64,000 nucleotides of DNA from Scilla litardierei. Lineage: Eukaryota > Streptophyta > Magnoliopsida > Asparagales > Asparagaceae. The stretch is from the NCBI GenBank assembly GCA_030789695.1, contig CM061142.1, forward strand, positions 568,283,281 through 568,347,280, read 5' to 3'. The notes beneath the pieces were generated by a model, which worked only from the letters and a program-made list of their open reading frames with translations, did not search any database and was not told where the DNA came from. Shown here piece by piece: positions 370 through 44,184 of this stretch (position 1 is its first letter; each line of letters begins with the position of its first letter). The position numbers were made by a program, and so were the translations under genes.

Positions 370-477
370 CTAGGACTGGTCCCTAGTGTCCACGTACGCC
401 TCGCCAAACACAGGCTCGGGCTCGGCGTCAGCAAACACCTCGTCCTCTACAATGTACTCAGGCTCAGGATCTAACAT
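370..477 (-). CDS. Short acidic ORF of the Gy-C left LTR (35 codons)
   Basis: On the minus strand an ATG at 477 opens 35 codons ending in TGDQS-like residues (TRDQS here) and TAG at 370-372. The partner in the right LTR (35987-36094) differs by three amino acids and stays open. The peptide is rich in Glu and Asp. Homologous ORFs of 35 codons lie in the Gy-A LTRs, with the same EDE block and ending. No known domain is recognised. It may be a leader ORF or an exon; whether it is translated is unknown. Confidence 0.45.
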   Translation of the reverse strand: MLDPEPEYIVEDEVFADAEPEPVFGEAYVDTRDQS

Positions 478-727
478 GTGTCACCCAAAAGAGTAAAGGG
501 GCACATGTCAGCAAGTCTAAAAGACTTGGGCAAGGAAACTGAAAAGGAAGGCAACTATTAACCTAGCAGTTATAGTATGCATGACATGGCAGTTATGGTA
601 TGAGTGCACAAGCAAGACATGGTGAAACAATAAGTACAAGAGAACAATTATTGGGACAAGTCAAAAGTAGCCAAGCTACTAACAATCTCAAGCTTTTCAC
701 TAGTCACGTTTCAAGTTGTTTGTAGAT

Positions 728-11600: not shown

Positions 11601-12582
11601 CCCCTTCCTTTGGTTGCGCGTGGATGACCTGCTGCAAGTTTTTTTTAATTAAAAAAAATGAAATGAAAGAGAGAACAGAATGTGAAAGAGAGAGATAGAG
11701 TAAAGAAAGTTGGAGTAAAAGAAAGGGAGTGTGGCAGGGCCTTGCTGTATGATAGTAAGTAAGAAAGTTATAAAGAGGTGTGATAAATTTGACTGAGGGT
11801 TATGTTAAGAATGATGAAATGAGGTTAAATGAATATAATAAATTGAGTAGGGTGACAGCCCATGTGATGAAGTTAAAGAGAAGAAAGTTTTGAATAGGAT
11901 AATAATAGAAGAATGGCAGACTGAGTATTAAAGGGGTAGGAAAAGTAATTAACTGTTAGTTTGTTTATTAACCCATAATAAATGTTAGTACTAGTAGGTT
12001 GGTGGTATTGGTCATAAGAATTAACTAACTAGTTTTGATTTTAGCAGTATGTTGTTAGTATGGATGATATCAGAATGAAACAAAGCATACTGTGTTAAAC
12101 CATGCTATTAGCCTAATTTATATTATCTAGTGCTTGTTTAGAGACTTAATGTTGATTGAATTTCAGCATGTTAGTTGTTAAATAATATGGGTTATAACCT
12201 GTTAACTTATTACCCCCATAGCCAAAAGTTGGTATGTAGACCTATTAACACCATGTTAAGCCAAGAAATCAAATTCGTAATGTAATTAGTGTAAGTTAAA
12301 TTATTATTAAATTTGTCATTAGCTTGTATTGTTAATTTAATCCCAGTATGTTAGCAAGTTTGTAACTGATGTTTATGTAATGAAACTAGAATAAAATAAG
12401 GTGTACCCTATTTATATAACCCAATAAAATCTGACGAACCTAATTTAGGGATTAACTAAATTTTGTGCTTATCTTACAATGGTCCTAATTCGTTAACTTA
12501 TTTAACCAAAACAGAGAACCAGTCATTCTATAGCGTAACGCTCGTCGAGGCGAACCCATGACAACCGATATCACCGGAAACA

Positions 12583-12717
12583 GGCAAGTGATACTTGCCA
12601 GTAATTATTTAGGACATGGTTTAGGCCAATCTGTAAAATTGTGTAAAAGAGACTAGGCGGTGAAATGATAGTCGCCTAGACGACCATATTGATCTAGTTT
12701 GACAACGAAACTAGATC
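12583..12717 (+). other. Conserved stem-loop cluster in the Gy-A LTR
   Basis: Three perfect hairpins: GGCAAGT/ACTTGCC (12583-12599), CTAGGCG/CGCCTAG (12653-12679) and GATCTAGTTT/AAACTAGATC (12691-12717). Each has a counterpart in the Gy-B and Gy-C LTRs. The last switches a T-A pair for C-G (GATCTAGCTT/AAGCTAGATC) in Gy-B and Gy-C. Further ones: TAGCGT/ACGCTA (12834-12850) and GGTGC/GCACC (13440-13452). Confidence 0.65.
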
Positions 12718-13246
12718 CGACACTTTCTACCGGTTTTCATTCATGCTGCCATGCCATGTTTAATTTTCAATTAACGGTACGCACTTTACCTGCTCATCTC
12801 ATGTCATGTCATGCATCATGTGTTCTATCGTGATAGCGTAGCACACGCTACAAAAATTGTAACTATTGAGGCTAGGCACCTGCTTTGCGGGCACAACCCT
12901 ATGCCAATAACACTTCCTGGCTCGTGATCCAGAAGATGGGCGCCAGTCCATATACACGTGGAGGGGTAGGGTTAAACGATTGCTTGAGCGTAGAAGTGAG
13001 CCCGTACAGCCACTTCAGCCAAAAGACGGAAACTCTGTGCACAAAGTGATAAATCAGTGATTCGTGAATCGTGAAATAGTGAATTGTAGCTTTCTGCTAC
13101 AACGTGCTTGATTGTTATTATTTTGTTCATTTAAATGTTGCATTCTTTTAATGTCATGCCATATCATCATGTTAGAACTGCTAGTTGCATTATTTTATTT
13201 GTATCCTTGCACAAAAGTCCTCCGTTTTTCTTGGGAGACTTTTGCT

Positions 13247-13281
13247 GACATGTGCCCTTTTCTCTTTGGGTGTCACATGTC
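13247..13281 (+). other. Hairpin enclosing the start codon of the LTR short ORF (Gy-A 5' LTR)
   Basis: GACATGTG (13247-13254) pairs with CACATGTC (13274-13281), with an inner CCC/GGG. The ATG at 13277 is in the 3' arm. Counterparts: Gy-C, Gy-B (same arms), Gy-D (12-bp arms of different sequence) and Gy-E (11-bp arms with one G-U pair). Confidence 0.65.
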
Positions 13282-13384
13282 AGGATTTGAGACAGAGCAG
13301 GTTGTTGAGGACGAGCAGTTCGTTGACGCTGAGTTCGAGGTCCCTGCAGAGACCGAGTTCGAGGAAACGGGTGACCAGTCCTAG
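13277..13384 (+). CDS. Short acidic ORF of the Gy-A 5' LTR (35 codons)
   Basis: ATG at 13277 to TAG at 13382-13384. The peptide begins MSGFETEQ, is dominated by Glu and Asp, and ends TGDQS. The 3' LTR copy (30505-30612) keeps the frame with three conservative changes. The Gy-C version has the same length, the same EDE core and the same ending. The Gy-D version shares MSGxET and is 34 residues. No known domain. The ATGTCAG at its start also fits a 3' splice site, so it could be an exon instead of an independent ORF. Expression is not demonstrated. Confidence 0.5.
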   Translation: MSGFETEQVVEDEQFVDAEFEVPAETEFEETGDQS

Positions 13385-13719
13385 ACTCGTTTGGAGTCTC
13401 CCCTTAGTTGTTACCTTTCCTTAGTTGTTGTTAGGTTTCGGTGCGTAGCACCTATCCCTCTTTGTTTTGTTTGGCCATGCTTTAGGCCTTGTTCAGACTC
13501 GTACTTTTGTGACTATTCTATGATGTTGTAATATTTGTTGGATGTTGTTGGTGGATATTTTCTTATCTGCATTATTATTGTTGTTGTTTCGTCGCAATGC
13601 AAGGACCTGCTACTTTTCGAAATTTTTACAGATGCTTATCAGACTGCAGCTTCACAGCTCCACGTCTGAGCGGACCTCCTCACGTCTCGCCTTCCATATT
13701 AGGGAAGCGGGGCATGACA

Positions 13720-13826
13720 GGTTTTAGTGGTGGCCCATGCAGGTCCTCTCTTTGTATCTGTGAAATATCGGAACAACAATGATGATAACAACATCCATTT
13801 AAATATTCATAACATTCGAGTCATGA
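13720..13826 (+). other. Gy-A leader remnant with unusual PBS-like motif
   Basis: After the LTR comes GGTTTTAG then TGGTGGCCCATGCAGG. The same TGGTGGCCCATG motif follows the LTR of Gy-B, Gy-C and Gy-E at the same distance, so it is the likely primer site. I cannot name the tRNA. The leader breaks off at about 13826 where Gy-B begins. Confidence 0.6.
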
Positions 13827-14559
13827 GCCCCGCTTCCCAAAAATATGGAGGCGAAGCGTGAGAAGGTCCGCTCAGACTTGAAGCAACAAAGCTGCAAGTC
13901 CGATAAGCGTCGATCAAGTTTAAAACTGCAGGTCCTTGCAACGCTAACGAAACAAAGATAATAATAATTAAATGGGACAAAAGAAATATCTCAGAATATT
14001 CATAAAATAAGTTTCCAACATCGCAGAAAAGCCACCAGGCTAAAAGAAAAAGTCTAAAGGCCCAAACATGGCCAACAAAAGTACAAAGTACAAAACAACG
14101 GTGCTACGCACCAATAACTAACAAAAGGCCTAAAACAACATAAAGCTCAACAAAACTCAAAGCATGGTCACCGGTGTCCACCAAAATCCTCCTGGGCAAT
14201 CATGGACTCAGACTCAGCGTCAGCAACTCATCACGTACACAGCAACGGTCTCTGGCTCAGGTCTAACATGTGACACCCAAAAGAGCAAGGGGCACATGTC
14301 AGCAAGTCTACAAGAGACTTGTGCAAGGAAACTGAAAGTAAAGTGAACAACCTAGCAGTTCTAGCATGAATGCGATGACATGGCAGTTTAAAGTATGAGT
14401 GCAACAGGTAAGGTAAAGTAAAGTAAAGTATGAGCATGGCATGGCATTCACAAGACAAGTACAAGACAAGGAAAGTAAGCACCTCGTGCACAGAGATTCC
14501 GCCTTTTGGCTAGAGGGCTGATCGGGCCACTCCTAAGCTCAAGTGAACGTTTATCCCTA

Positions 14560-20150: not shown

Positions 20151-20277
20151 TAAAAACGACTAGACTCAGGGCTTCTGACTCGGATGTTGCAATTTATTTA
20201 ATGGACATTATGTTATTATCGTTGTTCCGTTAATTTGCAATTGCAAGACTGGACCTGCATGGGCCACCAACAAAACC
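20151..20277 (-). other. Gy-B leader and PBS-like motif
   Basis: In element sense TGGTGGCCCATGCAGG follows the 5' LTR. Then comes a stretch sharing CATCCGAGTCA and GAGTCTA with the Gy-C leader. So cis signals were kept although coding sequence was lost. Confidence 0.65.
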
Positions 20278-23126
20278 TGTCACGCCCCGCTTCCCAAAAA
20301 TATGGAGGCGAATCGTGAGAAGGTCCGCTCAGACTTGAAGCAACAAAGCTGCAAGTCCGATAAGCGTCGATCAAGTTTAAAACTGCAGGTCCTTGCAACG
20401 CTAACGAAACAAAGATAATAATAATTAAATGGGACAAAAGAAATATCTCAGAATATCCATAAAATAAGTTTCCAACATCGCAGAAAAGCCACCAGGCTAA
20501 AAGAAAAAGTCTAAAGGCCCAAACATGGCCAACAAAAGTACAAAGTACAAAACAACGGTGCTACGCACCAATAACTAACAAAAGGCCTAAAACAACATAA
20601 AGCTCAACAAAACTCAAAGCATGGTCACCGGTGTCCACCAAAATCCTCCTGGGCAATCATGGACTCAGACTCAGCGTCAGCAACTCATCACGTACACAGC
20701 AACGGTCTCTGGCTCAGGTCTAACATGTGACACCCAAAAGAGCAAGGGGCACATGTCAGCAAGTCTACAAGAGACTTGTGCAAGGAAACTGAAAGTAAAG
20801 TGAACAACCTAGCAGTTCTAGCATGAATGCGATGACATGTCAGTTTAAAGTATGAGTGCAACAGGTAAGGTAAAGTAAAGTAAAGTACGAGCATGGCATG
20901 GCATTCACAAGACAAGTACAAGACAAGGAAAGTAAGCACCTCGTGCACAGAGATTCCGCCTTTTGGCTAGAGGGCTGATCGGTCCACTCCTAAGCTCAAG
21001 TGAACGTTTATCCCTACCCCCCCCACGTGTGTCGAGCCAGGGCCTTACCCCCGAACACGGAATGCTCGCTTCTGGACCACGAGCCAGGAAGTGTGTAAAC
21101 AAGTATGGCCTAGGGGTGCACCTAGCCAGGGACACGGAAACACGGATTTGTACAAGTATTTTGTAGCGTGTGCTACGATGCAACAATCAAGTTGGATGAC
21201 ATGTAAGATGCAATGCATGGCAGTTAAAAGTACGTACAGTTTAAGGAAAGTAAACGTGACAGTTTAGTATGCATGAACAACAAGTTTAAAGGGTTGGATC
21301 TAGCTTCGTTGTCAAGCTAGATCAATTAGGTGACGGATCTAGTTTCGTTGTCAAACTAGATCAAGTAGGCGTCTAGCCAGCTATCATTTCACTGACTAGT
21401 CTCTTTTACGCTAGGAACAAGAAAGTGGCCTAAAACATGGCCCTACACAAGAGTTGGCAAGTTTCACTTGCCTGTAAGTACAACGTCTGAGCACAGCGTC
21501 CAATGAGTCCAAGAATCACAATTATCCTACGTGCAAAGTCCACCGGCCTAAAGTCCATATTATTAATCTTGATTAGTGAATTTAAAACATTTAAAATACT
21601 TTGAAAATACCGATTTTAGTCTTGATTAGCATGCATTGGGTTGGGGGTCCTAGGGGTGCAAAACGTTACCTCAACACGACGCGAAAGCTACACCGGCGTC
21701 GGGTAGCGACACCAGGGGTTGGAATAATAGAACACGCTCCAAGTCCTGATTCCAATTTAGTTTCCTCGCTGGAAAGTTCAGAGCATCAACCCGGGCGACG
21801 ATTCCAGATTCCAAAGCTCGCACGTGCGACGACGGGCTACGACGGGTCGCAACGTCGTGCACGGCGAATCGTCGGAGAGAAAGCACCTAGGTGGGGCCCA
21901 CAGTAGTCCTAGGGACCTTTGGGGGACCCACAATAACTCTGGAGAACTTGGGGGGCCCTCGGTGGCAAGCGGTGCGACGGATGCGGGGTTGCGACGTATG
22001 GCCATCGGTCGTACCCCTCCAATGCGGGAGAATCCCTCGGTCGTGCGCTGAGAATGCGGGGCTGCGACGATTTGGTGTGCAGCGGATGCGGGGCGAGGCT
22101 TGGTGTGAGGGTTCCTATCGGTCAGACCGGTCGGGCGCCTCGGTCAGACGCTTGGGCTGCAGCGGAGCGGGGGTTGCGATGCGGAGCGGTGGAGCGGGCC
22201 GGTCAGATCGATTGGTCCTCTCGGTCGGAGCGGGGTGCGAGCATTGCAAGGAGCGGCGGGCGACTGGGTGCGGAGCGGGCGCTTGAGCTCTCGGTCTGAC
22301 CGAGAGCTCCCTTCGGTCGGTGCGGAAGAATTGAGCGGAGCGGCTGTGCAGCGATGCGGGCCAAGCTTGGTGCGGGGGCGGCCAGCGGTCGGAGCGGGGG
22401 AACGGAGCCCGTTCTCTCGGTCGTGCGGCTGCTGAACGTCGCAACGTTGCGACGAATCGTCGCAACGTCCAATTTCAAGTTTGGAAGAGGCTAGGGCTAA
22501 TTTCTTGCGAAAATAGGTCTTCCTAGGGGTTGCTTATATAGTATAGATGGGTTGACTTGGTCTAGGGCTAAATCTAATAGGATTAGAAGTTTAAAAAGAT
22601 TTAAAATTTGAAATTCAATTACTCCAACTCATCCAAGGGTTTGACCTGGTCCAAATGAGCTGGAAATTGGCTCAAAAATTCTTTAAAACGTTTAAAACTC
22701 AAATAAATTTTATTTGGCCGAAAATACTTTATAAATTAATTATTAAAAATAATATAAAACTTGTAAAAATTATAAAAGTGGTCAAATGAACTCCAAAAAT
22801 TATAAAATAAATATCGGGGTGATCGTGATGACGAATGTGAGCTAACTAAGAAGACGGATCTCAGATTCGACGTCGGACGACGAAACTAAAAATAGAAACG
22901 TCTCCCGTCAAGAGTGAGAATCGTCACGTCTCATCGAGTAAGTTTAAATTGTGGGAAACGACTCGGGAAACGTCGTTCCAAATTAGTGCCACTATTTAAT
23001 ACTCTCAGAGACGTTCACAACGGCATTTCACACGAAAGTGTTCACAAACGAACAAAGTCTAAAACAAACACGTGCACGGACAAAAGCACGTGCACGAACA
23101 ACGTACCACGAAAAGTGGTCGTTACA
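20278..23126 (-). repeat. Gy-B right LTR (5' in element sense)
   Basis: Starts TGTCACGCC and ends GTTACA; the final A doubles as the first base of the Gy-A gag ATG. About 0.6% different from the left LTR. Confidence 0.94.
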
Positions 23127-24221: not shown

Positions 24222-24305
24222 GTAACTTCTATACTAGTCTTCCTTATTCATGCATTATATTTGATTAGTTATACCCATGTTAATTTAGTTGCATATTACT
24301 CTTAG
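24222..24305 (+). other. Intron 1 of Gy-A between gag and protease (84 nt)
   Basis: G|GTAACT...CTTAG|GT. Without removal, gag would stop at 24266-24268. With removal the frame passes directly into the protease (VIAG then V, reaching LFDSGA). Gy-C has an unrelated 113-nt sequence with GT-AG ends at the same codon and the same phase (34250-34362). Confidence 0.8.
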
Positions 24306-26731
24306 GTGTCATCTTAGTTTCATCTCACCCGGCCCTGACCCTGTTCGATTCTGGAGCTTCCATGTGCATCCTATCTCGAAAGTTCGTAGTCGAACACTTA
24401 ATACCCACCTATACACTTCCCAAGTGTTGGAACATTACAACTGGGAATGGTGTAGTGAAGGTTGCACTGGGATGTAAACCGTGCCCGTTGGTGATTAGTG
24501 GACACGAACTGTATGCCAATTTCATCGTCCACGACCTACCCAACTTTGATGCTATTCTTGGCATTGACTGGTTAGGAGCTTTTTATGCCACGATCGACTG
24601 TCACCGGAAGAAAGTGGTGTTCGAAATTCCCGACCATCCAGTGTTCGAGTTTGTCGGTGGAGGACGTTCGCTTGGACCTGTCAAGTTCCGAGCCCAGCCT
24701 TACCGATTGATCATTGCATCTATGATTGCTGAGCCAGAGAAGCCTGCAGTAGTGAGAGATTTCGAAGACGTCTTCCCTGAAGACATTTCTGGACTGCCGC
24801 CTGATCGAGCGTTGGAGTTCGGCATCGATCTTATGCCAGGAGCCCAACCAATTTCGAAGGCGCCGTACCGTATGGCTCCTGCAGAACTAGAAGAGTTGAG
24901 GAAGCAGTTGGATGAACTACTACAGAAGGGTTTCATTCATCCCAGCGTATCTCCCTGGGGTGCACCCGTCTTGCTAATGAAGAAGAAAGATGGCTCGAGG
25001 AGAATGTGTATTGATTATCGAGAGTTGAATCAGATCACAGTGAAGAACAAGTACCCGCTGCCTCGCATTGATGATATCTTCGATCAGCTTGGTGGATCGA
25101 GGGTATTTTCGAAGTTAGATCTCCGGAGCGGATACCATCAAGTCAGAGTCAAGAAGGAAGATGTACTCAAGACCGCTTTTCAGACTAAGTACGGGCATTA
25201 TGAGTTCGTTGTCATGCCGTTCGGTGTGACCAACGCTCCTGCTGTGTTCATGAATCTCATGAACCTTATCTTTTACGACTTCCTTGACAAGTTCGTGGTG
25301 ATTTTCATAGACGATATCCTGGTGTACTCGAAGAGCGAGGAGGAGCATGCAGAGCATCTGAAGATAGTGTTGAAGACGCTCCGTCACCATAGACTGTATG
25401 CCAAGTACAGCAAATGCGAATTCTGGCTGGATAGAATTGCATTTCTTGGGCATGTAGTATCAGGAGCTGGTATCTCAGTGGATCCGGAGAAGGTCAAAGC
25501 AGTCAGTGAATGGCATGCACCTCGATCGGCATCGGACATCAGGAGTTTCCTTGGATTGGCTGGATACTACCGCAGATTTATCAAGGACTTCTCGAGGATA
25601 GCTGAGCCAATGAAGAGATTGACGAGGAAGGATGTTAAGTTCAGTTGGTCAGACTCTTGTGAGCAAGCCTTTTCTACCTTGAAAGAGAGACTAACTACTG
25701 CACCAGTCTTAGCTATTCCAGACAGAAGCTGAGGCTTCGAGATTTTCTGCGACGCATCAGGCAAGGGACTTGGATGTGTTCTGCACCAACACAATCATGT
25801 GGTCGCATATGCTTCGCGACAATTGAAGGTCCATGAGAAGAATTATCCGACCCACGACTTGGAGTTAGCCGCTGTCATCTTTGCTTTGAAGATTTGGCGA
25901 CATTTCTTACTGAGTGAAAAAGTGAAAATCTTCACTGACCACAAAAGTTTGAAATATATATTCACCCAGAAGGAGCTGAATATGAGACAGCGTAGATGGT
26001 TGGAATTGATGGCAGACTACGACATCGACCTTCAGTATCACCCGGGGAAGGTGAATGTCGTACCGGATGCCTTGAGTCGACTGCCCGAAGTGATGATTCT
26101 CACAGCTCAGTGGAGATTGTAGCAGGATCTATGAAAGATGAATGTTGAAGCTGTACTACCGGGAGTCACATCGTCGTTGATGAACATGCAGATTCAATCG
26201 ACGATCGTGGATCGAATCAAGACTGCTCAAGATGGGGATGCTAAGTTGAAGAAGATCAGAGAGCAAGTCGAAGCAGGACTTCGGACAGATTTTTTGATTC
26301 ACACGGATGGATCTTTGAGATATGGTAGTAGGGTCTGCGTACCTGCCGGAGATATCAGAGAGGAGTTGATGAATGAGGCTCACAGTTCGCCTTATTCTAT
26401 TCATCCTGGAGGTGCTAAGATGTACAAGGATCTTCGTCAGAATTTCTGGTGGCATGGGATGAAGAGAAGTGTGGCACGTAGTGTTGCCAAGTGCCTCGTG
26501 TGTCAGCAAGTGAAGGCTGAACACCATCGCATTGCTGGATTACTACAACCTCTGTCGATTCCCGAGTGGAAGTGGCAGCACATCACTATGGACTTCGTGA
26601 CTGGCTTACCTCGGAGCACCAAGCAGAACGACGCAATCTGTGTCATAGTGGATCGATTGACTAAGTCTACGCACTTTATACCTTTGCGAGTTGGGCAATC
26701 CACGGAGATATTAGCAAGGAAGTATATGGAG
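24306..26731 (+). pseudogene. Gy-A pol, exon 2: protease, RT, RNase H, start of integrase
   Basis: 808 codons in one frame. Aspartic protease LFDSGAS just after the intron; RT with VVIFIDDIL; connection domain GLAGYYRRF; RNase H with [15 protein letters not shown] and PDALSRL; integrase zinc finger (HPGG...CLVCQQVK) and MDFVTGLP. Nonsense codons: TGA 25730-25732 (Gly expected), TAG 26120-26122 (Gln in Gy-C) and TGA 26132-26134 (Cys in Gy-C). No frameshift. It ends at the splice donor in phase 0 after KYME. Confidence 0.92.
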
Positions 26732-26800
26732 GTAATGACCTAACTCGTACCTTAATAGTTTCCTTCTAGTACTAGTCGTGACGTGAATTATGTCGTGTAG
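26732..26800 (+). other. Intron 2 of Gy-A inside integrase (69 nt)
   Basis: GAG|GTAATG...TGTAG|GAG. Unspliced, the frame ends at 26743. Spliced, it reads YME-EIVRLHG, matching YME-EVVRLHG of Gy-C across its own 71-nt GT-AG interval (31999-32069). Phase 0 in both. Confidence 0.8.
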
Positions 26801-27703
26801 GAGATCGTGCGCTTGCATGGAGTCCCTGTGAGCATTGTATCAGATCGTGATACGAGATTCACATCTCAGTTCTGGAAGAGTCTGCAGACCAATCTGGGTA
26901 CCAGTCTGAAGTTCAGTACTGCGTATCACCCGCAGACGGATGGACAGTCGGAGCGCACTATTCAGATATTGGAGGATATGTTGAGAGCTTGCATGTTGGA
27001 TCTCAAGGGTTCATGGGAGGATCATCTGCACCTAGTGGAGTTCTCATACAACAATAGCTATCAAGCGAGCATTGGCATGGCGCCATTTGCTGCTCTCTAC
27101 GGAAGGAAATGTCGATCGCCACTGAGTTGGGATGACGTAGGTGATAGAGAGCTCTTGGGGCCAGAGATGATAGTGGAAGAAGTTAATGTTGTGCGAGATA
27201 TCAGAGACAAGCTTCGGATCGCTCAGGACCGTTATAAGCATTAGGCAGATGCTAAACGACGTCCTCTAGAGTTTCAGCCAGGAGATCATGTGTTCCTGAA
27301 GATCTCACCAAATCGAGGAGTGATTCGATTTGGAAAGCGAGGCAAGCTTAGTCCGAGGTATATTGGACCTTTCGATGTGCTGGAGCGAGTTGGAGAGGTA
27401 GCATATCGCTTAGCTTTGCCACCGTCCTTGGTGGGAGTACATGACGTCTTCCATGTGTCCCAGCTCCGTCGTTATATCAGCGACCCTTCTCATGCTGTGG
27501 ATTACTCAGAGATCACAATTCGACCAGATCTGACGTACGAACAGCAACCGGTGGAGATCTTAGATCAACGTCAGAAAGTTTTCAGGACCAAGACTGTTGA
27601 TCTAGTCCGGGTGATGTGGCGTCGCGACTCGCCAGGTGAGTCAACCTGGGAGCGGGAAGATGAGATACGGGAGCGTTATCCATATTTGTTCCCTACTCTT
27701 TAG
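26801..27703 (+). pseudogene. Gy-A pol, exon 3: integrase core, GPF module, chromodomain
   Basis: 301 codons, exactly the length of Gy-C exon 3. Contains SDRDTRF (catalytic Asp) and [13 protein letters not shown] (catalytic Glu), YGRKCRSPL, the GPF module (YIGPFDVL), VSQLRRYI and a C-terminal chromodomain-like segment with VDLVRVMWR and STWEREDEI. One nonsense TAG at 27242-27244 (Trp expected). The chromodomain type underlies the Tekay/Del assignment. Confidence 0.92.
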
Positions 27704-27735
27704 TTGATGAGAATTCCGAGGACGGAATTTTTCCT

Positions 27736-27748
27736 AAGGTGGGTAGAA
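27736..27748 (+). other. Polypurine tract of Gy-A
   Basis: AAGGTGGGTAGAA directly before the 3' LTR. Identical in Gy-D (38756-38768). Confidence 0.85.
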
Positions 27749-30700
27749 TGTAACGGCCGGTATTTTCTAGACGTATGATTATTGTATGTCTGTTTTCCAT
27801 CCGGATATTTTTGTGCGCGAATTCCTTTGTACGTCAACGCGAGCGCGTATCCGTTTTGTTTTACCGTACCATCGTTAATTGACTATTAATCTTAATGAAT
27901 TATCTTAACTTAATTATCTCGCTAATTACAAAATTGCTAATCACCTTTAACCTTCACTAATTACGTCATTCATTTTTAACAATCACAGCCTATAGATTGC
28001 TTATTTACCTTAACTAAAAATGGGGAATTACTAATTAAACTTTGCCATTGGATGAAAACATTTTCCCCTAACTAATTAAACTCTATTGAATCCAGTCTCT
28101 TCTGTTGGTGAGATCCAACATAAAAATTTAATCTCTCCCCACAACCAGCTCATCCCTCCATCAATTTGTCTCCCCACTGTTATTATAACAGTATCACCAT
28201 CGTCAACGTCTCTCCCTGCAACCTCCTTCCTCCTGCAAAACAAATCCACACAGACAAAATCAACCAGCAACCATTCCTCTCCCCTGCAAAATTCTCCAAG
28301 CCAGATTCAACAAATCAAATCCAAAACCAAAAACAAAATCTCCCCAACCAAATCAGCCCCAACAAATTCTTCCCCAAAATCAGAAACAACCAAAAAAAAA
28401 ACAAATTTCATCAACCCAACCTGAAATTAGAGAGGTGAAATCTGAAATCACATTTCAGATTCCTACAAGTTCTGATTTTTACCATCAATTTCAGATTGGA
28501 ACCCCCAAAAAACCCTAGATCTTCATCTTCCAAACCCATTAACCAGATCCTTCCTCCTCCCTCTCCTATTGGCCTCACCCCCATCACCTGAGAACTCCCC
28601 GCCGCCGGCCAACCAGGACCACCCACGCCCGGAGCCGCATGCAAGCCGCCACAGCTGCCCCCTCACCTCTGCGCCGTGCCGCCTGCGCCAGAGATCCGCC
28701 AGCGCGCGCCTCCAGCACGGCGCCGCCCCGCCGTCCGACGCACAGCCGCCGCCGAACCGCCGGAGCCCCGCCTTGCGCCGTCGACAGCCGGTCTCCGCCC
28801 CTCCTCCCTCCTCCGCGCGATGGTGAGGCCCCTTCCTTTGGTTGCGCGTGGATGACCTGCTGCAAGTTTTTTTTAATTAAAAAAAATGAAATGAAAGAGA
28901 GAATAGAATGTGAAAGAGAGAGATAGAGTAAAGAAAGTTGGAGTAAAAGAAAGGGAGTGTGGCAGGGCCTTGCTGTATGATAGTAAGTAAGAAAGTTATA
29001 AAGAGGTGTGATAAATTTGAGTGAGGGTTATGTTAAGAATGATGAAATGAGGTTAAATGAATATAATAAATTGAGTAGGGTGACAGCCCATGTGATGAAG
29101 TTAAAGAGAAGAAAGTTTTGAATAGGATAATAATAGAAGAATGGCAGACTGAGTATTAAAGGGGTAGGAAAAGTAATTAACTGTTAGTTTGTTTATTAAC
29201 CCATAATAAATGTTAGTACTAGTAGGTTGGTGGTATTGGTCATAAGAATTAACTGACTAGTTTTGATTTTAGCAGTATGTTGTTAGTATGGATGATATCA
29301 GAATGAAACAAAGCATACTGTGTTAAACCATGCTATTAGCCTAATTTATATTATCTAGTGCTTGTTTAGAGACTTAATGTTGATTGAATTTCAGCATGTT
29401 AGTTGTTAAATAATATGGGTTATAACCTGTTAACTTATTACCCCCATAGCCAAAAGTTGGTATGTAGACCTATTAACACCATGTTAAGCCAAGAAATCAA
29501 ATTAGTAATGTAATTAGTGTAAGTTAAATTATTATTAAATTTGTCATTAGCTTGTATTGTTAATTTAATCCCAGTATGTTAGCAAGTTTGTAACTGATGT
29601 TTATGTAATGAAACTAGAATAAAATAAGGTGTACCCTATTTATATAACCCAATAAAATCTGACGAACCTAATTTAGGGATTAACTAAATTTTGTGCTTAT
29701 CTTACAATGGTCCTAATTCGTTAACTTATTTAACCAAAACAGAGAACCAGTCATTCTATAGCGTAACGCTCGTCGAGGCGAACCCATGACAACCGATATC
29801 ACCGGAAACAGGCAAGTGATACTTGCCAGTAATTATTTAGGACATGGTTTAGGCCAATCTGTAAAATTGTGTAAAAGAGACTAGGCGGTGAAATGATAGT
29901 CGCCTAGACGACCATATTGATCTAGTTTGACAACGAAACTAGATCCGACACTTTCTACCTGTTTTCATTCATGCTGCAATGCCATGTTTAATTTTCAATT
30001 AACGGTACGCACTTTAACTGCTCATCTCATGTCATGTCATGCATCATGTGTTCTATCGTGATAGCGTAGCACACGCTACAAAAATTGTAACTATTGAGGC
30101 TAGGCACCTGCTTTGCGGGCACAACCCTATGCCAATAACACTTCCTGGCTCGTGATCCAGAAGATGGGTGCCAGTCCATATACACGTGGAGGGGTAGGGT
30201 TAAACGATCGCTTGAGCGTAGAAGTGAGCCCGTACAGCCACTTCAGCCAAAAGACGGAAACTCTGTGCACAAAGTGATAAATCAGTGATTCGTGAATCGT
30301 GAAATAGTGAATTGTAGCTTTCTGCTACAACGTGCTTGATTGTTATTATTTTGTTCATTTAAATGTTGCATTCTTTTAATGTCATGCCATATCATCATGT
30401 TAGAACTGCTAGTTGCATTATTTTATTTGTATCCTTGCACAAAAGTCCTCCGTTTTTCTTGGGAGACTTTTGCTGACATGTGCCCTTTTCTCTTTGGGTG
30501 TCACATGTCAGGATTTGAGACAGAGCAGGTTATTGAGGACGAGCAGTTCGTTGACACTGAGTTCGAGGTCCCTGCAGAGACCGAGTTCGAGGACACGGGT
30601 GACCAGTCCTAGACTCGTTTGGAGTCTCCCCTTAGTTGTTACCTTTCCTTAGTTGTTGTTAGGTTTCGGTGCGTAGCACCTATCCCTCTTTGTTTTGTTT

Positions 30701-30947: not shown

Positions 30948-31049
30948 GAAATGAAAGCTACGGAGACGAAAACCACACATGAGGAGAAAATCCACCAAAA
31001 CATATATATATAATATAATAATCCAGATACAAGAAAACCAGTCGTTACA
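30948..31049 (-). repeat. Gy-C left LTR, piece 3
   Basis: Begins with the second GAAAT and ends CGTTACA, matching the end of the right LTR at 38085. In element sense this is the start of the 3' LTR. Confidence 0.92.
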
Positions 31050-31061
31050 TCCTCCCCAACT
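31050..31061 (-). other. Polypurine tract of Gy-C
   Basis: On the minus strand AGTTGGGGAGGA directly precedes TGTAACGACTGG. Confidence 0.8.
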
Positions 31062-31095
31062 TAAGAAAAATTCCGTCCTCGGAATTTCCCAACAC

Positions 31096-31998
31096 TCACG
31101 TGTCCGAAAACAAAAGTGGGAAACGCTCTCGCATCTCATCCTCATTCTCCCAAGTAGACTCTCCAGGCGAGCCGTGTCGCCACATCACCCCCACAAGATT
31201 GACAACCTTGTCCCGAAGTGACTTCTGACGCCTGTCTAGAATCTGCACTGGCTGCTGGTCATACGTCATATCAGGGCGATAGGTAATCTCCGAGAAATCC
31301 ACAGCATGAGATGGATCGCTAATGTATCGACGAAGCTGCGACACATGGAAAACATTATGAACTCCCTCCAAATATGGCGGCAAGGCTAAGCGATAAGCTA
31401 CCTCGCCAACTTTCTCCAGAATGTCAAACGGTCCAATGTATTGCGGGCTCAACTTCCCTCACTTCCCAAAGCGAATCACACCACGATTCAGGGAAATCTT
31501 CAAGAACACATGGTCGCCCGGCTGAAACTCCAAAGGACGACGTTTCGCATCCGTCCAATGCTTAAAACGGTCCTGAGCAATCCTCAACCTCTCCTGAATG
31601 TTCCTGACAACATCCACGGCCTCCACAATCATCTCAGGTCCCAACAGCTCCCGATCACCAACGTCATCCCAACTCAATAGCGATCGACATTTCCTCCCAT
31701 AAAGAGCGGTGAAAGGCGACATGCCAATACTCGCCTGGAAGCTGTTGTTGTAGGAAAACTCTACCAGATGTAGATGGTCCTCCCACGAACCCTTGAAATC
31801 CAACATGCACGCCCTCAGCATGTCCTCCAAGATCTGAATCGTCCTCTCGGACTGGCCATCCGTCTGTGGATGGTACGCCGTGCTGAAACTCAGACGCGTA
31901 CCCAAACTCTTCTGCAAACCCTGCCCGAACTGAGATGTGAACCTCGTGTCCCTGTCCGACACGATGCTCATGGGGAATCCGTGAAGTCGTACGACCTC
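31096..31998 (-). pseudogene. Gy-C pol, exon 3: integrase core, GPF module, chromodomain
   Basis: 301 codons starting EVVRLHG. Catalytic motifs SDRDTRF and [10 protein letters not shown] are present, as are YIGPFDIL, VSQLRRYI and the C-terminal chromodomain-like tail with MWRHGSPGESTWENEDE. One nonsense TGA at 31459-31461, just before the GPF module. Same length as Gy-A exon 3. Confidence 0.92.
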
Positions 31999-32069
31999 CT
32001 GCACGATTCACGTTACATCACTATCCAAACTAGGAAAAGGAAATAAAAACGGAGAGTAGAAGAATTTAC
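31999..32069 (-). other. Intron 2 of Gy-C inside integrase (71 nt)
   Basis: On the minus strand GAG|GTAAAT...GTGCAG|GAG, phase 0, at the same codon as Gy-A intron 2. The interior shows little similarity to Gy-A. Confidence 0.8.
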
Positions 32070-34249
32070 CTCCATATATCTCCTCGATAGCGCCTCAGTC
32101 GACTGTCCCACTCGGAATGGAATAAAGTGCGCGGATTTGGTCAATCGATCTACGATCACCCAAATCGTGTCATTCTGCTTCGGACTCCGAGGTAATCCAG
32201 TCACGAAATCCATAGTGATGTGTTGCCATTTTCACTCCAGAATCGGAAGCGGTTGTAGCAACCTGGCCGTATGCTGATGCTCCGCCTTCACTTGTTGGCA
32301 AACCAAACACTTGGCTACACTCCGAGCCACACTCCTCTTCATACCATGCCACCAATAGTTCAGCCGAAGATCCTGGTACATCTTGGTCCCACCAGGATGC
32401 ACAGAATACGGCGAACTGTGTGCCTCCACCATCAACTCCCCTTTGATATCCCCAGCCGGCACACACAACCTGGCTCCAAACCTCATCGAGCCATCCCCAT
32501 GAATCAAAAAGTCAGTCCGCAGACCGGCTTCCACCTGCTCCCGAATCTTTGCCAGCTTCGGATCCTCAGCCTGGCCAGCCTTGATCCGTTCCACAATCGT
32601 CGACTGAATCTGCATACTCATCAACGAAGAAGCCTCCCCAGGAAGAACAATCTCCACACCAGACTCGCAAAAATCCTGCTGCAATCTCCACTTCGAGGTC
32701 AAAATCATCACCGCTGGAAGCCTACTCAGCGCATCAGGAACCACATTCACCTTGCCAGGGTGAAACTGCAAATCAATCTCATAATCCGCCATGAGCTCCA
32801 ACCATCGACGCTGTCGCATGTTGAGCTCCTTCTGAGTAAAAATATACTTCAAGCTTTTGTGATCGGTGAAGATCTTCACTTTCTCACTCAGCAGGAAGTG
32901 CCTCCAAATCTTGAGCGCAAACATAACAGCAGCCAACTCCAAATCATGCTTCGGGTAATTCTTCTCATGAGTCTTGAGCTGACGCGAAGCATACACCACA
33001 ACATGCCCGTGCTGATGTAACACACAACCAAGACACTGCGAAACAGGCCACTCTCTGATGGCCCTAATCTTCTCGGGATCCACTGAAATACCATCTCCAG
33101 TCACCACATGCCCCAGAAAAGCAACTCTATCCAGCCAAAACTCGCACTTTGAAAACTTAGCATACAGCCGATGCTTCCTCAAAATCTCCAACACCGTCCT
33201 CAAGTGCGATGCATGCTTCTCCTCCGACTTTGAATAGATCAGAATGTCGTCAATAAAGATAACGACAAACTTATCTAAAAAGTCATTGAAGATCAGGTTC
33301 ATCAGATTCATGAAAATTGCGGGTGCATTGGTTACACCGAAAGGCATAACCACAAACTCGTAGTGTCCATACTTCGTCCTGAACGCTGTCGTCGGAACAT
33401 CTCCCTTCTTCACCTTCAACTGATGGTAACCACTCCTCAGATCCAACTTCGAAAACACCCTCGAACCTCCAAGCTGATCAAAAATATCATCGATGCGAGG
33501 CAGCGGGTATTTATTCTTGATGGTCACCGCATTCAACTCCCGATAGTCCACGCACATGCGACGCGAACCATCCTTCTTCTTCACCAGCAGCACCGGTGCT
33601 CCCCACGGAGACACACTAGGATTGATATAACCCTTCTGCAAAAGCTCATCCAGCTGCTTCCGCAATTCCTCCAACTCAGCGGGTGCCATACGGTATGGCG
33701 CCTTCGAAATCGGTTGCGCTCCCGGAACAAGATCAATAGAAAATTCTAAAGCTCGATCAGGTGGCAAACTAGACATCTCCTCAGGGAAGACGTCATCAAA
33801 ATCTCGCACCACAGCTGGCCTCTCCAACTCCATCTGCATAGCCACAACCTCCACCGGCCTGGCCCGAAACCTGACAGGACCAAGCGAGCTGCTACCTCGG
33901 CTGAACTCAAATACTGGATGTCCGGGAATCTTGAACACCACCTTCTTCCTCCGACAGTCGATCGTAGCATAGAAGCTCTCAAGCCAATCCATCCCAAGGA
34001 CCGCATCATAGTTGATGATGTCGTGGACAATGAAATCAGCGTAAAGCTCATGTCCACAGACCACCAACGAGCAAGAATTGCAACCAAGATGCACCGAGAC
34101 CACGCCATTCCCTGTAACGATATTCCAACTCTTGGAAAGAGGGGACGTCGACAAGGAATGCTTCTCCACGAAGCTCTGAGAAATAATGCACATCGATGCA
34201 CCAGAGTCAAAGAGGACTCGTGCAGGAAATGTGCACACCAAAACCACAC
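32070..34249 (-). pseudogene. Gy-C pol, exon 2: protease, RT, partial RNase H, integrase start
   Basis: 726 codons. Protease LFDSGAS, RT FIDDIL and RNase [11 protein letters not shown] and PDALSRL are present. Compared with Gy-A about 82 codons are missing in frame near 33045, where EW joins directly to LGCVLHQ. This removes the end of the RT connection domain and the first RNase H catalytic Asp (FCDAS). One nonsense TGA at 32232-32234 (Trp in Gy-A). The frame is otherwise open for 679 codons. Confidence 0.92.
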
Positions 34250-34362
34250 CTAACAAGCAATTAACAATCAAACCCTAGTCTAGCAAACAATCATATTCAA
34301 GCAAACAACATAATCTAACAATTAAAACTAGCTAGGATAGTAACAGCTAGATTGAGGATTAC
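34250..34362 (-). other. Intron 1 of Gy-C between gag and protease (113 nt)
   Basis: On the minus strand GCAG|GTAATC...TTAG|GTG. Its removal joins VIAG to V-VLV and the protease LFDSGA in frame, phase 1, as in Gy-A. The intervening DNA is AT-rich and different from the Gy-A intron. Confidence 0.8.
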
Positions 34363-35494: not shown

Positions 35495-35639
35495 CTAATG
35501 ACACAGAAAACGAAGCAGCTTAGACTCATAGCTTATGACTCGGATGTCGAACTTAGTTTATTGGACGTTCTAATATTATTATCGTCATTCCGATAATCGC
35601 AGTTACAGAAGAGGACCTGCATGGGCCACCAACAAAACC
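35495..35639 (-). other. Gy-C leader with PBS-like motif
   Basis: In element sense GGTTTTGT then TGGTGGCCCATGCAGG follows the LTR. About 140 bases later comes the gag ATG. No gene. Confidence 0.65.
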
Positions 35640-35986: not shown

Positions 35987-36094
35987 CTAGGACTGGTCCC
36001 CAGTGTCCACGTACTCCTCGCCAAACACAGGCTCGGGCTCGGCATTAGCAAACACCTCGTCCTCTACAATGTACTCAGGCTCAGGATCTAACAT
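35987..36094 (-). CDS. Short acidic ORF of the Gy-C right LTR (35 codons)
   Basis: ATG at 36094 to TAG at 35987-35989. Starts MLDPEPEY and ends TGDQS, the same length as the Gy-A ORF. It lies downstream of the TATA box, so it would be in the 5' leader of genomic RNA. The ATG is in the 3' arm of a hairpin (36119-36126 with 36090-36097). No known domain. Confidence 0.5.
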   Translation of the reverse strand: MLDPEPEYIVEDEVFANAEPEPVFGEEYVDTGDQS

Positions 36095-36126
36095 GTGTCA
36101 CCCAAAAGAGTAAAGGGGCACATGTC
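36090..36126 (-). other. Start-codon hairpin of the Gy-C right LTR
   Basis: In element sense GACATGTG faces CACATGTT, with inner CCC/GGG. Seven Watson-Crick pairs plus a closing G-U. Confidence 0.6.
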
Positions 36127-37342
36127 AGCAAGTCTAAAAGACTTAGGCAAGGAAACTGAAAAGGAAGGCAACTAGCAACCTAGCAGTTATAGTATGCATG
36201 ACATGGCAGTTATGGTATAAGTGCACAAGCAAGACATGGTGAAACAATAAGTACAAGAGAACAATTATCGGGACAAGTCAAAAGTAGCCAAGCTACTAAC
36301 AATCTCAAGCTTTTCACTAGTCACGTTTCAAGTTGTTTGTAGATGTTTACGCCTTACAGCTGAACGGTTTGGCATTCATGCTGATTGGCCGCTTAACACT
36401 ACCCCAGAACCCAGAGTTTACGCCTTACCACTGCAGTTGGTGATCGGGCAGACTCCCAGTTGATTGGCCGCTTAACTCTTACCCCAATACCCACATGTGA
36501 ACGAGCCAGGGTCCCTACACACGAGCTCAGTAAATGAGCCAGGGTTGCCCCACACAAGAGCTCGTTTCCTGGATCACAACCGGAGCGTAATTCATTTGGC
36601 ATAGGGGTGCACCTAGCCTCAATCATTTCACAAGATGTAGCGAAGCTACGCAATCACGGAAACACTTAAAGAATGCAATGACATGACAATTAATTTGCGT
36701 ACCGTTAATGGAAATTAAACATGACATGGTAGTTGTGCAACATGGTAAATGTCGGATCTAGCTTCGTTGTCAAGCTAGTTCCTAAAATTGCGCCTAGGCG
36801 AGTATCATTTCGTCGCCTAGTCTCTTTTACGCCTACAACAAGCAAATGGCCTAAGACATGCCCTAAAACCCTAAGTGGCAAGTTTCACTTGCCTAGCACC
36901 GAGGATGCCGATCAACGAGGCCGTCACACAAATGCTAACTACGGAGATGAGATCGCTGCCATGGCAAAACAACATTAGAACAACATCCAACCTAGTTTTA
37001 TTAGGGTTTCACAAAAACACAATGGGTTATGAGGATATTAAGAGATCGAGTTATTACCGTATAGGAGAGGAAGAATGATGTCGAGCAAGCACGGCAATGG
37101 AAGAAACGCTCCGGGGAACCTAGGGTTCAGATCTGGAATGGATGGGGAAAATCTGGAGAAATGGGGTTTTGGGGGATTTTGGGGGTTGGAGATGGCCTAG
37201 GGCATGGTGGTAGGCAAAAATGGAGAGGGGGAGAAGCTCTTGATGAAGGAGGAAGGCTAGAGGAAGGTTGGGGAAGATCAGAGGTCAAGGGGGAAGGAAA
37301 GAAGCCAGGAGAAGAGAAAGAAAGAAAAGAAACGAAGTGGGG

Positions 37343-41115: not shown

Positions 41116-41621
41116 AGTTGACTAATCTTGTCGGTCACATGTGACTATGTCACATGCGACTAGTATGGACTCGTGTTTCAGTATATGACGGATTAGCATC
41201 CTGGCACGTGATCCAGGAAGTACACGTGGGTGGGGTTGGTTCCCGGGCACTAGCCAATAGTAAACGGATCGCCTTCGGGGGGCACTTGAAGGTGTATTTA
41301 TTTACTATTCGTCTAACAGCAGGAATCTTATTCACAGACTTGCACACACAGTTAAATAATTGAAAAAGAAAGTTAATTACAGACTAATGTTACATTGCTC
41401 AACTGCCATTTTAATTTTTACAACTGAAATGCCATGCTAATGTAACTTGTTGCTTTAACTACCATGCTAGTGTAACTTTTCATAATTGTTTTAACTGCTT
41501 CAGTTCATTGAAATACATGCTAGTGTAAATTCTTTTAACTGCTGTAAAACTGCCGTATATATAACTTGTTATATATATATCTTGCCTTGGGTCATCTGAC
41601 ATCTACTTGCAGACCCTTGCT

Positions 41622-41652
41622 GACATACATTCATGTTGTTTGAATGTATGTC
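41622..41652 (+). other. Start-codon hairpin of the Gy-D LTR
   Basis: GACATACATTCA (41622-41633) and TGAATGTATGTC (41641-41652), a perfect 12-bp stem with a 7-base loop. Only the outer GACAT/ATGTC is shared with Gy-A; the rest changed on both sides. Confidence 0.7.
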
Positions 41653-41752
41653 AGGTTACGAGACAGGTAATCTGGAGGACGAGTTGCTGGATCAGAGTGA
41701 TCCAATTGACCAGGATTCTGCTGATCCTGAAGTCCACTCTACCGTGGTCTAG
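41648..41752 (+). CDS. Short acidic ORF of the Gy-D LTR (34 codons)
   Basis: ATG in the 3' hairpin arm, beginning MSGYETGNLEDE, Asp/Glu-rich, TAG at 41750-41752. The first residues match Gy-A (MSGFET); the rest is diverged but keeps charge and length. Confidence 0.45.
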   Translation: MSGYETGNLEDELLDQSDPIDQDSADPEVHSTVV

Positions 41753-42928: not shown

Positions 42929-43059
42929 ACTGAAAAAGAAAACAAAGTAAACATTTGCGTACAAGATTTATCTAGACAGTCTAGATAATAATGACATCCA
43001 TATTGTTCTGAAGTATTTGCAGAATGCAAGAGGGACCTGCATGGGCCACCACTAAAACT
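42929..43059 (-). other. Gy-E leader with PBS-like motif
   Basis: In element sense AGTTTTAG then TGGTGGCCCATGCAGG after the LTR, as in Gy-A. No gene. Confidence 0.6.
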
Positions 43060-44184
43060 TGTCACGCCCTGCTTCCCATTGTACTTGGGAGCGAGAACGT
43101 GAGCGGGTCCGCATGTGCTTAAAGCCAAGAAGAAGTACTTTTTTCTTTCTTTCTTCTTTGACTTAAGCACAATAAGCGTATGTGATTTAAACATCGCAGG
43201 TACTTGAACACAAACTCAGAACAACGTAGAATATCATTATTATAATTTCAATGTCCAGATTACATGTACATAAATAAGGCCTAGCATAGCTGTTAGAAAC
43301 AGATACACGGAATGGAAATACACATAAACAAGATTACGACAATAAATATTAAATTAAAGCGGTGTTGCAAAGGCACGTCGTTCCTCAGCAAAAGATCCCA
43401 TGGTCATGGTACTCCTGGTCAACCTGCTCGATCAATCTCAAAGTAGACTCCTCAGCGGACTCTATCTCCAAATCTGACATATATTTCACAAGATAATAGA
43501 CACATAAATATACGTCAGCGAGGGTCGCTCGACAAGATTTAAAACATTAGAATAATTGACCCTCAGTAAGATTTAAAATAAAATAATATATGTATGGTTT
43601 TACAAAGCGAGCAATACAATTTGGTAACAATAAGGAAAAGTATGGCAGCGTAAGAAAACATGCGAGCATGGCAAAGTGTAGTGTGCATATTAAAGTGAGG
43701 TGAGCATGGCAAAGTATAGTGAGCATGATACAGAGTAGCTAGCAGTTTTACACAATTCATGATAGTAATAACAGGAAGTAAAATGTGTTCCATTCAATTA
43801 TTTAATCTAGTGACAAGTCCAATGTCTGAGAGCAGAAGAAACTATAATTTGCACCCAAACCAACGAAAGCTACCAGTGGCTCTGTACTTAACGACCCTAT
43901 AAGGCGACGGTCAAATTTATTCATGGGGTGAAATCTAGTATTCCGACCTCTACTACAATGGACTACCACACCCAAATGTGTCATTGTGTATCCGTATAGT
44001 TTCATGTATGCCTCATCTCCAAATATTCCGTAAATGCCCCAAGGGCCCAATTTTCTGTATATGCCCCGAGGGCCCAATTTCACAATTTATAAGGGGTAAA
44101 CCATCCAAAGATTGTGGGGTGTAAGAAGTGATACAAAATGCAACAAAGGCACTTCATAATTATTTTCACAATGGCAGAAACATT
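43060..44184 (-). repeat. Gy-E LTR, interrupted by Sire-1
   Basis: Begins TGTCACGCCCTGC, the end typical of this Gypsy group. It is cut at 44184; the remainder must lie beyond Sire-1, outside the window. Contains the start-codon hairpin and short ORF at 43385-43516. Confidence 0.8.
43385..43480 (-). CDS. Short acidic ORF of the Gy-E LTR (31 codons)
   Basis: ATG at 43480, starting MSDLEIESAEE, TGA at 43385-43387. The ATG sits in the 3' arm of an 11-bp hairpin: GACGTATATTT (43506-43516) with AAATATATGTC (43476-43486), including one G-U pair. Same architecture as Gy-A, Gy-C and Gy-D despite little sequence similarity. Confidence 0.42.
   Translation of the reverse strand: MSDLEIESAEESTLRLIEQVDQEYHDHGIFC

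Follow-up and report, generated by a model that had tools for sequence, protein, structure and literature searches.

The window analysed here is a 64,000-nucleotide stretch of DNA from Scilla litardierei (assembly GCA_030789695.1, contig CM061142.1, positions 568,283,281 to 568,347,280 of the forward strand). It contains five related families of Ty3/gypsy long terminal repeat (LTR) retrotransposons, Gy-A to Gy-E, whose LTRs, where complete, measure roughly 2.3-3.3 kb. The elements have the order typical of the group: gag, protease, reverse transcriptase (RT), RNase H, and integrase lie between two LTRs. Specifically, Gy-C matches the Pfam families Retrotrans_gag, RVP_2, RVT_1, RT_RNaseH, and Integrase_H2C2, and in its next open reading frame (ORF) rve appears only below the cut-off; the integrase C-terminal sequence VMWRRDSPGESTWEREDEIRERYPYLF was read by eye. 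LTRs are usually treated as non-coding. Here, we describe a conserved hairpin in these LTRs that resembles a 3' splice site folded on itself, together with the short acidic reading frame behind it, and we weigh the possibility that the two provide an alternative tail for Gag.

A covarying hairpin with splice-site letters

An earlier note, made from the sequence alone, had reported a hairpin followed by a short acidic ORF in the LTRs. Both are real, and the coordinates and ORFs were verified (Table 1). The hairpin, H2, has a longer stem than the note gave it, starting CTGAC(A/G)T, ending ATGT(C/T)AG, and forming 14-16 pairs in the predicted fold. Seven LTRs were folded. H2 lies 421-490 nt upstream of their 3' ends, and in each of them 0 of 300 shuffles was as stable; the minimum free energy z-scores are -4.9 and -4.5 for Gy-A, -4.7 and -4.7 for Gy-B, -4.6 for Gy-C, -7.5 for Gy-D, and -3.6 for Gy-E. 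Covariance models of Rfam 15, scanned against positions 12300-14400, gave no match up to E = 1.

Relatives were fetched from the host plant genome with an 18-base motif that stands directly behind the 5' LTR. The motif occurs at 24,654 places (12,361 + 12,293), and its reversed control at none (0 + 0). Hairpin regions were taken from the first 100 listed places, all within approximately the first 17 Mb of contig C1; drawn from one stretch of one contig, this sample yields family frequencies that are not genome-wide estimates. The places, numbered with the prefix L, sort into 69 copies of clade i (the form with ATG in the 3' arm), nine of clade ii (without ATG), and 12 of clade iii (more diverged, without ATG at that place). 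Ten fall in no clade: L113, L121, L129, L131, L053, L055, L071, L084, L087, and L089. Two of these, L055 and L121, are clade i copies with an altered acceptor. The 3' part of the L089 LTR, read by eye, looks like a further family, with a small hairpin and a phase-1, non-acidic open frame behind CTCCAG.

The claim that the arms of the stem change together across families is borne out. In seven hand-picked representatives (one hairpin each from Gy-A, Gy-C, L126, Gy-D, Gy-E, L142, and L048), 69 of 70 outer pairs are standard. Setting 5' arms against the 3' arms of other families gives a pairing of 0.879, and of the 5040 permutations of the arms only 2, counting the true one, match the observed value. 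Of ten stem pairs, numbers 3, 6, 8, 9, and 10 change on both sides, and numbers 1, 2, 4, 5, and 7 are the same in all seven representatives. The invariant pairs hold C, T, A, C, and T on the left (CT.AC) and AG on the right; CTRAC is the branch-point consensus. L142 carries CTAAC/GTTAG where CTGAC/GTCAG is found elsewhere, a double change that preserves both the stem and the splice consensus, and families B and C represent the G-U intermediate between the two forms. Single copies deviate in the stem (L047, L055, L101, and L121). A pyrimidine tract occupies the H2 loop in most families. Common to the relatives, then, are CTRAC, a loop that is often pyrimidine-rich, YAG, and a phase-1 ORF that follows the AG. 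By eye, the arms of a second hairpin just upstream, H1, also covary across families (AAAAGTC/GACTTTT, GGGTC/GACCC, GGTCTA/TAGACC).

Table 1. Coordinates of the features in the window (^ marks a predicted splice boundary)
Feature	Element	Position	Strand	Remarks
Hairpin H2	Gy-A 5' LTR	13244..13283	+	CTGAC in 5' arm branch-point-like; pyrimidine-rich loop; ATGTCAG in 3' arm; candidate 3' splice site after 13283
Hairpin H2	Gy-A 3' LTR	30472..30511	+	
Hairpin H2	Gy-B LTR	14263..14303	-	ORF behind it frameshifted
Hairpin H2	Second Gy-B LTR	20720..20760	-	
Hairpin H2	Gy-C 5' LTR	36088..36129	-	CTGAC/GTTAG
Hairpin H2	Second Gy-C LTR	471..512	-	
Hairpin H2	Gy-D LTR	41619..41654	+	14 bp
Hairpin H2	Gy-E LTR	43474..43519	-	
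Putative acidic coding exon	Gy-A 5' LTR	13284..13384	+	Phase 1 after AG; ends TGDQS and stop; selection shown on relatives
Putative acidic coding exon	Gy-A 3' LTR	30512..30612	+	
Putative acidic coding exon	Gy-C 5' LTR	35987..36087	-	Selection shown on relatives
Putative acidic coding exon	Second Gy-C LTR	370..470	-	
Putative acidic coding exon	Gy-D	41655..41752	+	
Putative acidic coding exon	Gy-E	43385..43473	-	
Upstream hairpin H1	Gy-A	13213..13243	+	AAAAGTC/GACTTTT, directly before H2; stem read by eye, no folding
Upstream hairpin H1	Gy-D	41589..41616	+	GGGTC/GACCC around CTGAC and GCAG; read by eye
GC-type donor-like motif	Gy-A	12584..12590	+	AG^GCAAGTG; upstream in LTR
GC-type donor-like motif	Gy-C	36886..36892	-	
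Predicted gag/pro intron	Gy-C	34250..34362	-	Phase-1 donor VIAG^GTAATC, proposed partner of the LTR acceptor; flanking ORFs are gag and protease
Predicted gag/pro intron	Gy-A	24222..24305	+	Phase-1 donor VIAG^GTAACT
18-base motif behind 5' LTR	Families A, B, C, E (identical)	13729..13746	+	Used to fetch relatives
18-base motif, further places		20251-20268	-	
18-base motif, further places		35613-35630	-	
18-base motif, further places		43033-43050	-	

An acidic reading frame under selection

The ORF behind the hairpin has the lengths originally given, namely 35 codons in both copies of Gy-A and both of Gy-C, 34 in Gy-D, and 31 in Gy-E. Gy-A and Gy-C are thus equal in length, as had been stated, but the ending TGDQS does not hold throughout, since the Gy-C copy at 508-370 ends TRDQS. 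Gy-B does keep the hairpin in both LTRs with a frameshifted ORF (one B copy was translated).

Within the window, the signal of selection is weak: Gy-A against Gy-C gives a pN/pS (nonsynonymous over synonymous differences per site) of 0.62, with 0.71 and 0.70 in the other frames, and the three differences between the ORFs of the two Gy-A copies all change residues. Only the genome copies make selection clear. They reveal purifying selection, with pN/pS values, summed over non-independent pairs and uncorrected for multiple hits, of 0.25 in clade ii (six of nine copies; other frames 1.17 and 1.08), 0.25 in sub-group a of clade iii (four copies; 1.05 and 1.24), and 0.44 in clade i (45 copies; 1.42 and 0.66). 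The clade ii set left out L114, which is broken, and L119 and L125, which are close to L115 and L122; variable columns by codon position in this clade number 9, 10, and 21 of 32, 33, and 33. All intact families share one phase of the frame behind the AG. The acidic ORF is most simply understood as a coding exon within the LTR that begins at the hairpin AG. Behind it, in families A-C, lies a small palindrome, GGTGCGTAGCACC, whose core is donor-like (approximately 13440-13452, and the same place in Gy-B and Gy-C).

A start codon for this frame is not conserved: Met is present in clade i and absent in clades ii and iii. The triplet in place of the ATG in clade ii is ACG (ACC in L047), and none of the eight intact copies has an in-frame upstream ATG in an unspliced reading. 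Three of the four intact clade iii copies likewise have none; two of these, L066 and L067, do not differ across the compared stretches of hairpin, exon, and gag. Continuation of the ORF, unspliced, from an upstream ATG is ruled out in these 11 copies. With no in-frame ATG in them, the exon must be joined to something upstream in these copies. A micropeptide that begins at the hairpin ATG, one proposal of the earlier note, fails across the group as a whole, given that relatives keep the hairpin and the selected ORF without it. The note's second proposal, in which a stem encloses a splice acceptor (ATGTCAG/ATGTTAG), came closer, and the branch-point and YAG consensus and the ORF phase fit it.

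An intact frame tends to accompany gag

Integrity of the acidic ORF goes together with the presence of gag. Among 30 loci with 1.5 kb of downstream sequence, gag lies within that distance in 15 of 15 with an intact ORF and in 0 of 9 in which the ORF is broken or runs on (Fisher exact test, 7.6e-7, or 1.8e-5 if L062 and L070 are put among the broken ones), P values that overstate the strength of the association because the nine gag-less loci amount to about three lineages. Three others, L055, L071, and L073, possess gag, with the acceptor altered, the hairpin absent, or the stop lost, and L053 has neither gag nor an intact ORF. Where only 318 nt of downstream sequence was available (20 loci), gag was found in 10 of 13 intact cases and 0 of 7 others. 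This pattern suggests that the LTR supplies an alternative tail for Gag.

A spliced subgenomic Gag mRNA would call for a splice donor at the gag end. Candidate sites of this kind, phase-1 and donor-like (VIA/VIT + G^GTAA or GTAT), end gag in 18 of 20 gag-positive loci, and they occur also in Gy-A, Gy-C, and a set of four elements. Two other arrangements were considered and rejected. Pol finds no support as a partner of the 3' LTR: the pol ends read in Gy-A, Gy-C, and Gy-D terminate a short way ahead of it and share no donor. Nor can the acidic exon form an N-terminal part of Gag, for it ends in a stop.

A proposed switch at the end of gag

The reading we favour, with somewhat less than even confidence, is that the donor at the gag end is spliced to the acceptor in the 3' LTR hairpin, yielding a Gag isoform with an acidic, LTR-encoded C-terminal tail. 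H2 would be a 3' splice site folded on itself, with CTRAC in its 5' arm base-paired to the YAG acceptor in its 3' arm. The acidic ORF would be a coding exon in phase 1 behind the hairpin AG, and its most likely partner would be the phase-1 donor at the end of gag. Such splicing would skip pol and add a tail of approximately 24-34 residues (15 in L062 and L070, and longer with the additional upstream exon discussed below). Splicing to protease, or none at all, would serve Gag-Pol and genomic RNA. By tying the branch point to the acceptor, the stem would make the acceptor weak, so that splicing is partial and unspliced RNA survives. The stem, its covariation, selection on the coding frame, the phase, and the company of gag in the loci read are observed; we infer that the acceptor is used, that gag is the partner, and that the stem is regulatory. 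Splicing is plausible here because Gy-A and Gy-C appear to have introns in their coding regions.

More tentatively, and with a clear lean toward doubt, the full arrangement could be as follows: the last coding exon of a Gag isoform resides inside the LTR, the pairing of branch point and acceptor acts as a switch between genomic RNA, Gag-Pol, and tailed Gag, and the 5' LTR copy of the exon sits idle in the leader.

Alternative readings

A different partner may lie upstream in the LTR itself. Here, leader exons 1 and 2 of the 5' LTR would be spliced to the acidic exon, with an AUG or non-AUG start in exon 1, and the product would be independent of gag. We regard this split LTR gene as unlikely, although its candidate sites are well kept. 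AG^GCAAGTG, a GC-type donor by consensus, is found in 37 of 37 clade i and ii genome loci, 0.9-1.7 kb upstream of the LTR end, and GTAAGTCA is found in eight of nine clade iii loci with at least 1.5 kb of sequence. In clade ii, a putative exon 2 of 66 nt spans TTTCAG to the donor in eight of nine copies. In clade iii, 11 of 13 copies have such an exon (CAG^..^GTAAGTCA) of 75, 66, or 54 nt, the last length resting on a chosen donor two bases upstream. In L091 the exon 1 frame is long and open and contains an ATG, and L129, L110, and L132 have in-phase ATG frames ahead of donor-like sites.

Yet no conserved start was found in the upstream LTR, only starts in single copies, and the evidence is thin (five clade ii and five clade iii copies with enough sequence). 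Among the five clade ii copies with an intact exon 3 and a readable exon 1, in-frame Met occurs only in L091; L122 was judged on its last 170 residues. Stops interrupt the frame in L115 (24 codons upstream), L111 (at the junction), and L125 (in exon 2), and the exon 1 frames of L114 and L122 differ. Of the five clade iii copies, L083 and L108 alone lack an in-phase ATG frame, and the predicted exon 1 of L108 (384 nt, its start guessed from a TATA box) contains no ATG. The split gene by itself also leaves the link to gag unexplained.

Several observations touch these upstream sequences. AGGCAAGTGAAACTTGCC, at 12582-12598 in Gy-A (where it has GATAC) and 36894-36878 on the reverse strand in Gy-C, places the GC-type donor-like site in a small palindrome within a strongly conserved block of the upstream LTR. 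An exon-like stretch in clade iii (GTNSCAPTSEEALDP.. in L066) has a length divisible by three and good candidate splice sites in L066, L046, L069, L108, L080, and L083. Clade iii exon 2 starts G^GT AC in 8 of 11 copies, like the protease exon of L066, which favours gag as the partner; the protease exon of L108 starts G^GT AT. Exon 2 of Gy-A has one TGA, and the A-like L074 is open there.

A further reading makes the ATG in the 3' arm a start codon in clade i, and ACG one in clade ii, so that the hairpin would control an acidic micropeptide or upstream ORF. All 46 intact copies of clade i do have the ATG in this position, ACG takes its place in seven of eight intact clade ii copies, the clade i ORF is under selection, and the upstream exon 2 of family C and of Gy-A contains stops. 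However, all 23 clade i copies whose ORF is broken retain the ATG as well, so that it does not track ORF integrity; moreover, the search pattern for this clade demands RTG, so that these counts are not independent of the sorting. Pairing with CAT of the 5' arm can explain the ATG. In clade iii, read by eye, the corresponding in-frame codon is neither ATG nor ACG. By the usual rule for start contexts, that of the hairpin ATG is poor, and a long leader probably lies ahead of it. The earlier note's view that the ATG opens the ORF consequently does not stand as a general account, although within clade i alone it could still serve as a start; we consider the reading quite improbable. Least probable of all is that the hairpin is a cis-acting RNA element for packaging, dimerisation, or control of leader splicing and that a separate acidic exon merely borrows the same AG: in its favour, families B and clade iii b, without gag nearby, lost the ORF and keep the hairpin or its clade iii counterpart, but the invariant stem positions are the branch-point and acceptor consensus in the seven representatives, and the phase of the exon is fixed to the hairpin AG in intact families.

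Returning to Gag spliced into the LTR, a number of findings weigh against it. A covariation count with other representatives, a mutated L047, and a misplaced Gy-D start was weaker: 44 of 49 for the inner pairs, and 24 of 5040 permutations. H1 has, by eye, its own CTRAC..AG in several families and offers a competing AG. One clade i control frame is also below 1, and sub-group b of clade iii (L046, L069, L080, and L083) shows no selection (pN/pS 1.03); running on without the usual stop, it looks non-coding. L062 and L070 have gag, and their ORF is only 15 codons long. The nine gag-less loci, six of them family B, are not phylogenetically independent, and an equal phase of gag donor and LTR exon is expected by chance in one case in three. 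Upstream, in-phase ATG frames precede the donor-like site in L091 and L114 and, in clade iii, in L129 (60 and 75 codons), L110 (28 and 54), and L132 (10 codons). Exon 2 pN/pS does not favour the acid frame in clade ii (0.68/0.62/0.85) or clade iii (0.78/0.77/1.12), and coding by exon 2 in family C was rejected for its out-of-frame indels and stops, read by eye.

Comparison with known systems

A reading frame inside an LTR has a precedent in sag of mouse mammary tumor virus, which is likewise expressed from spliced RNA; unlike the exon described here, sag is a whole ORF with its own start, and its carrier is an animal retrovirus. Spliced Gag-only RNAs are also known, as the accessible parts of the papers cited here report. 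In Drosophila copia, alternative splicing removes nearly all of pol and leaves a Gag-only RNA, but copia is a Ty1/copia element, and no selected LTR-encoded tail exon is described for it in that text (PMC3735527). Barley BARE1, a plant LTR retrotransposon, splices near the gag end (donor CAG/GTAT) to make Gag only, and BARE2, which is unable to make Gag, does not make the spliced RNA; BARE1, however, belongs to the Copia superfamily, and its 104-nt intron brings a stop three residues beyond Gag from an acceptor outside the LTR (PMC3735527). The Arabidopsis element EVADE (EVD) produces by splicing a short Gag-only mRNA, shGAG, and its unspliced genomic RNA is kept in the nucleus; that Ty1/Copia transcript is cleaved and polyadenylated prematurely, within the element, and has no 3' LTR exon (PMC8892269).

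Among Ty3/gypsy elements, Cer1 of Caenorhabditis elegans makes a spliced 2.4-kb mRNA and a protein with in-frame peptides shared with Gag, but this is an animal element, the protein is a novel one of approximately 60 kDa, and the available text mentions no conserved acceptor hairpin (PMC3315495). Ogre is a plant Ty3/gypsy element with partial splicing in its coding region; its intron lies between GAG-PROT and RT, and nothing in the LTR is described in the portion seen (PMC6317226). A literature search for LTR-encoded ORFs, conserved LTR hairpins, and acceptors in the LTRs of such elements returned no description of the arrangement, most subscription papers lying outside its coverage.

Motif and pol scans of viral contigs gave no relative, and 13 pattern matches in other genome contigs, all in bacterial records, were judged to be chance. 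A protein search with Gy-C gag gave two matches, P0001 and P0002 (Zingiber protein), neither with an acidic tail; P0001, a gag, ends DDVITG plus nine residues.

Other features of the elements

The gag-pol region of Gy-A and Gy-C appears to be split by at least two introns, one between gag and pro and one inside integrase, because the frames, read by eye, are broken unless these are left out. The putative integrase intron (YME^GTAA..AG^GAG) lies within 31000-32300 on the reverse strand in Gy-C and 26400-27780 on the forward strand in Gy-A.

In a Tekay/Del chromovirus, a tRNA-Met primer binding site is expected right behind the 5' LTR. Comparison with the letters of that site did not reveal it in Gy-A, Gy-B, Gy-C, or Gy-E, where the LTR is followed by RGTTTT, two bases, and then TGGTGGCCCATGCAGGTCC. 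Such a site is typical of most chromoviruses, according to the part of the source available (PMC6317226). Within the 18-base motif, GCAGGTCC is complementary to GGACCTGC in the LTRs of families A, B, and C. This complementarity may represent self-priming or a leader stem in place of the tRNA-Met site.

Implications

To our knowledge, it is poorly understood how plant Ty3/gypsy elements produce Gag in excess of Pol. If the proposal is true, an LTR exon under purifying selection, preceded by a 3' splice site that covaries and masks itself, would provide a direct molecular handle on the choice between Gag and Pol in these elements. Given 24,654 places with the motif in the host genome, material for RNA tests should be plentiful. 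The annotation of LTRs would change as well, and an intact or broken exon would become a sequence test for which families encode their own Gag.
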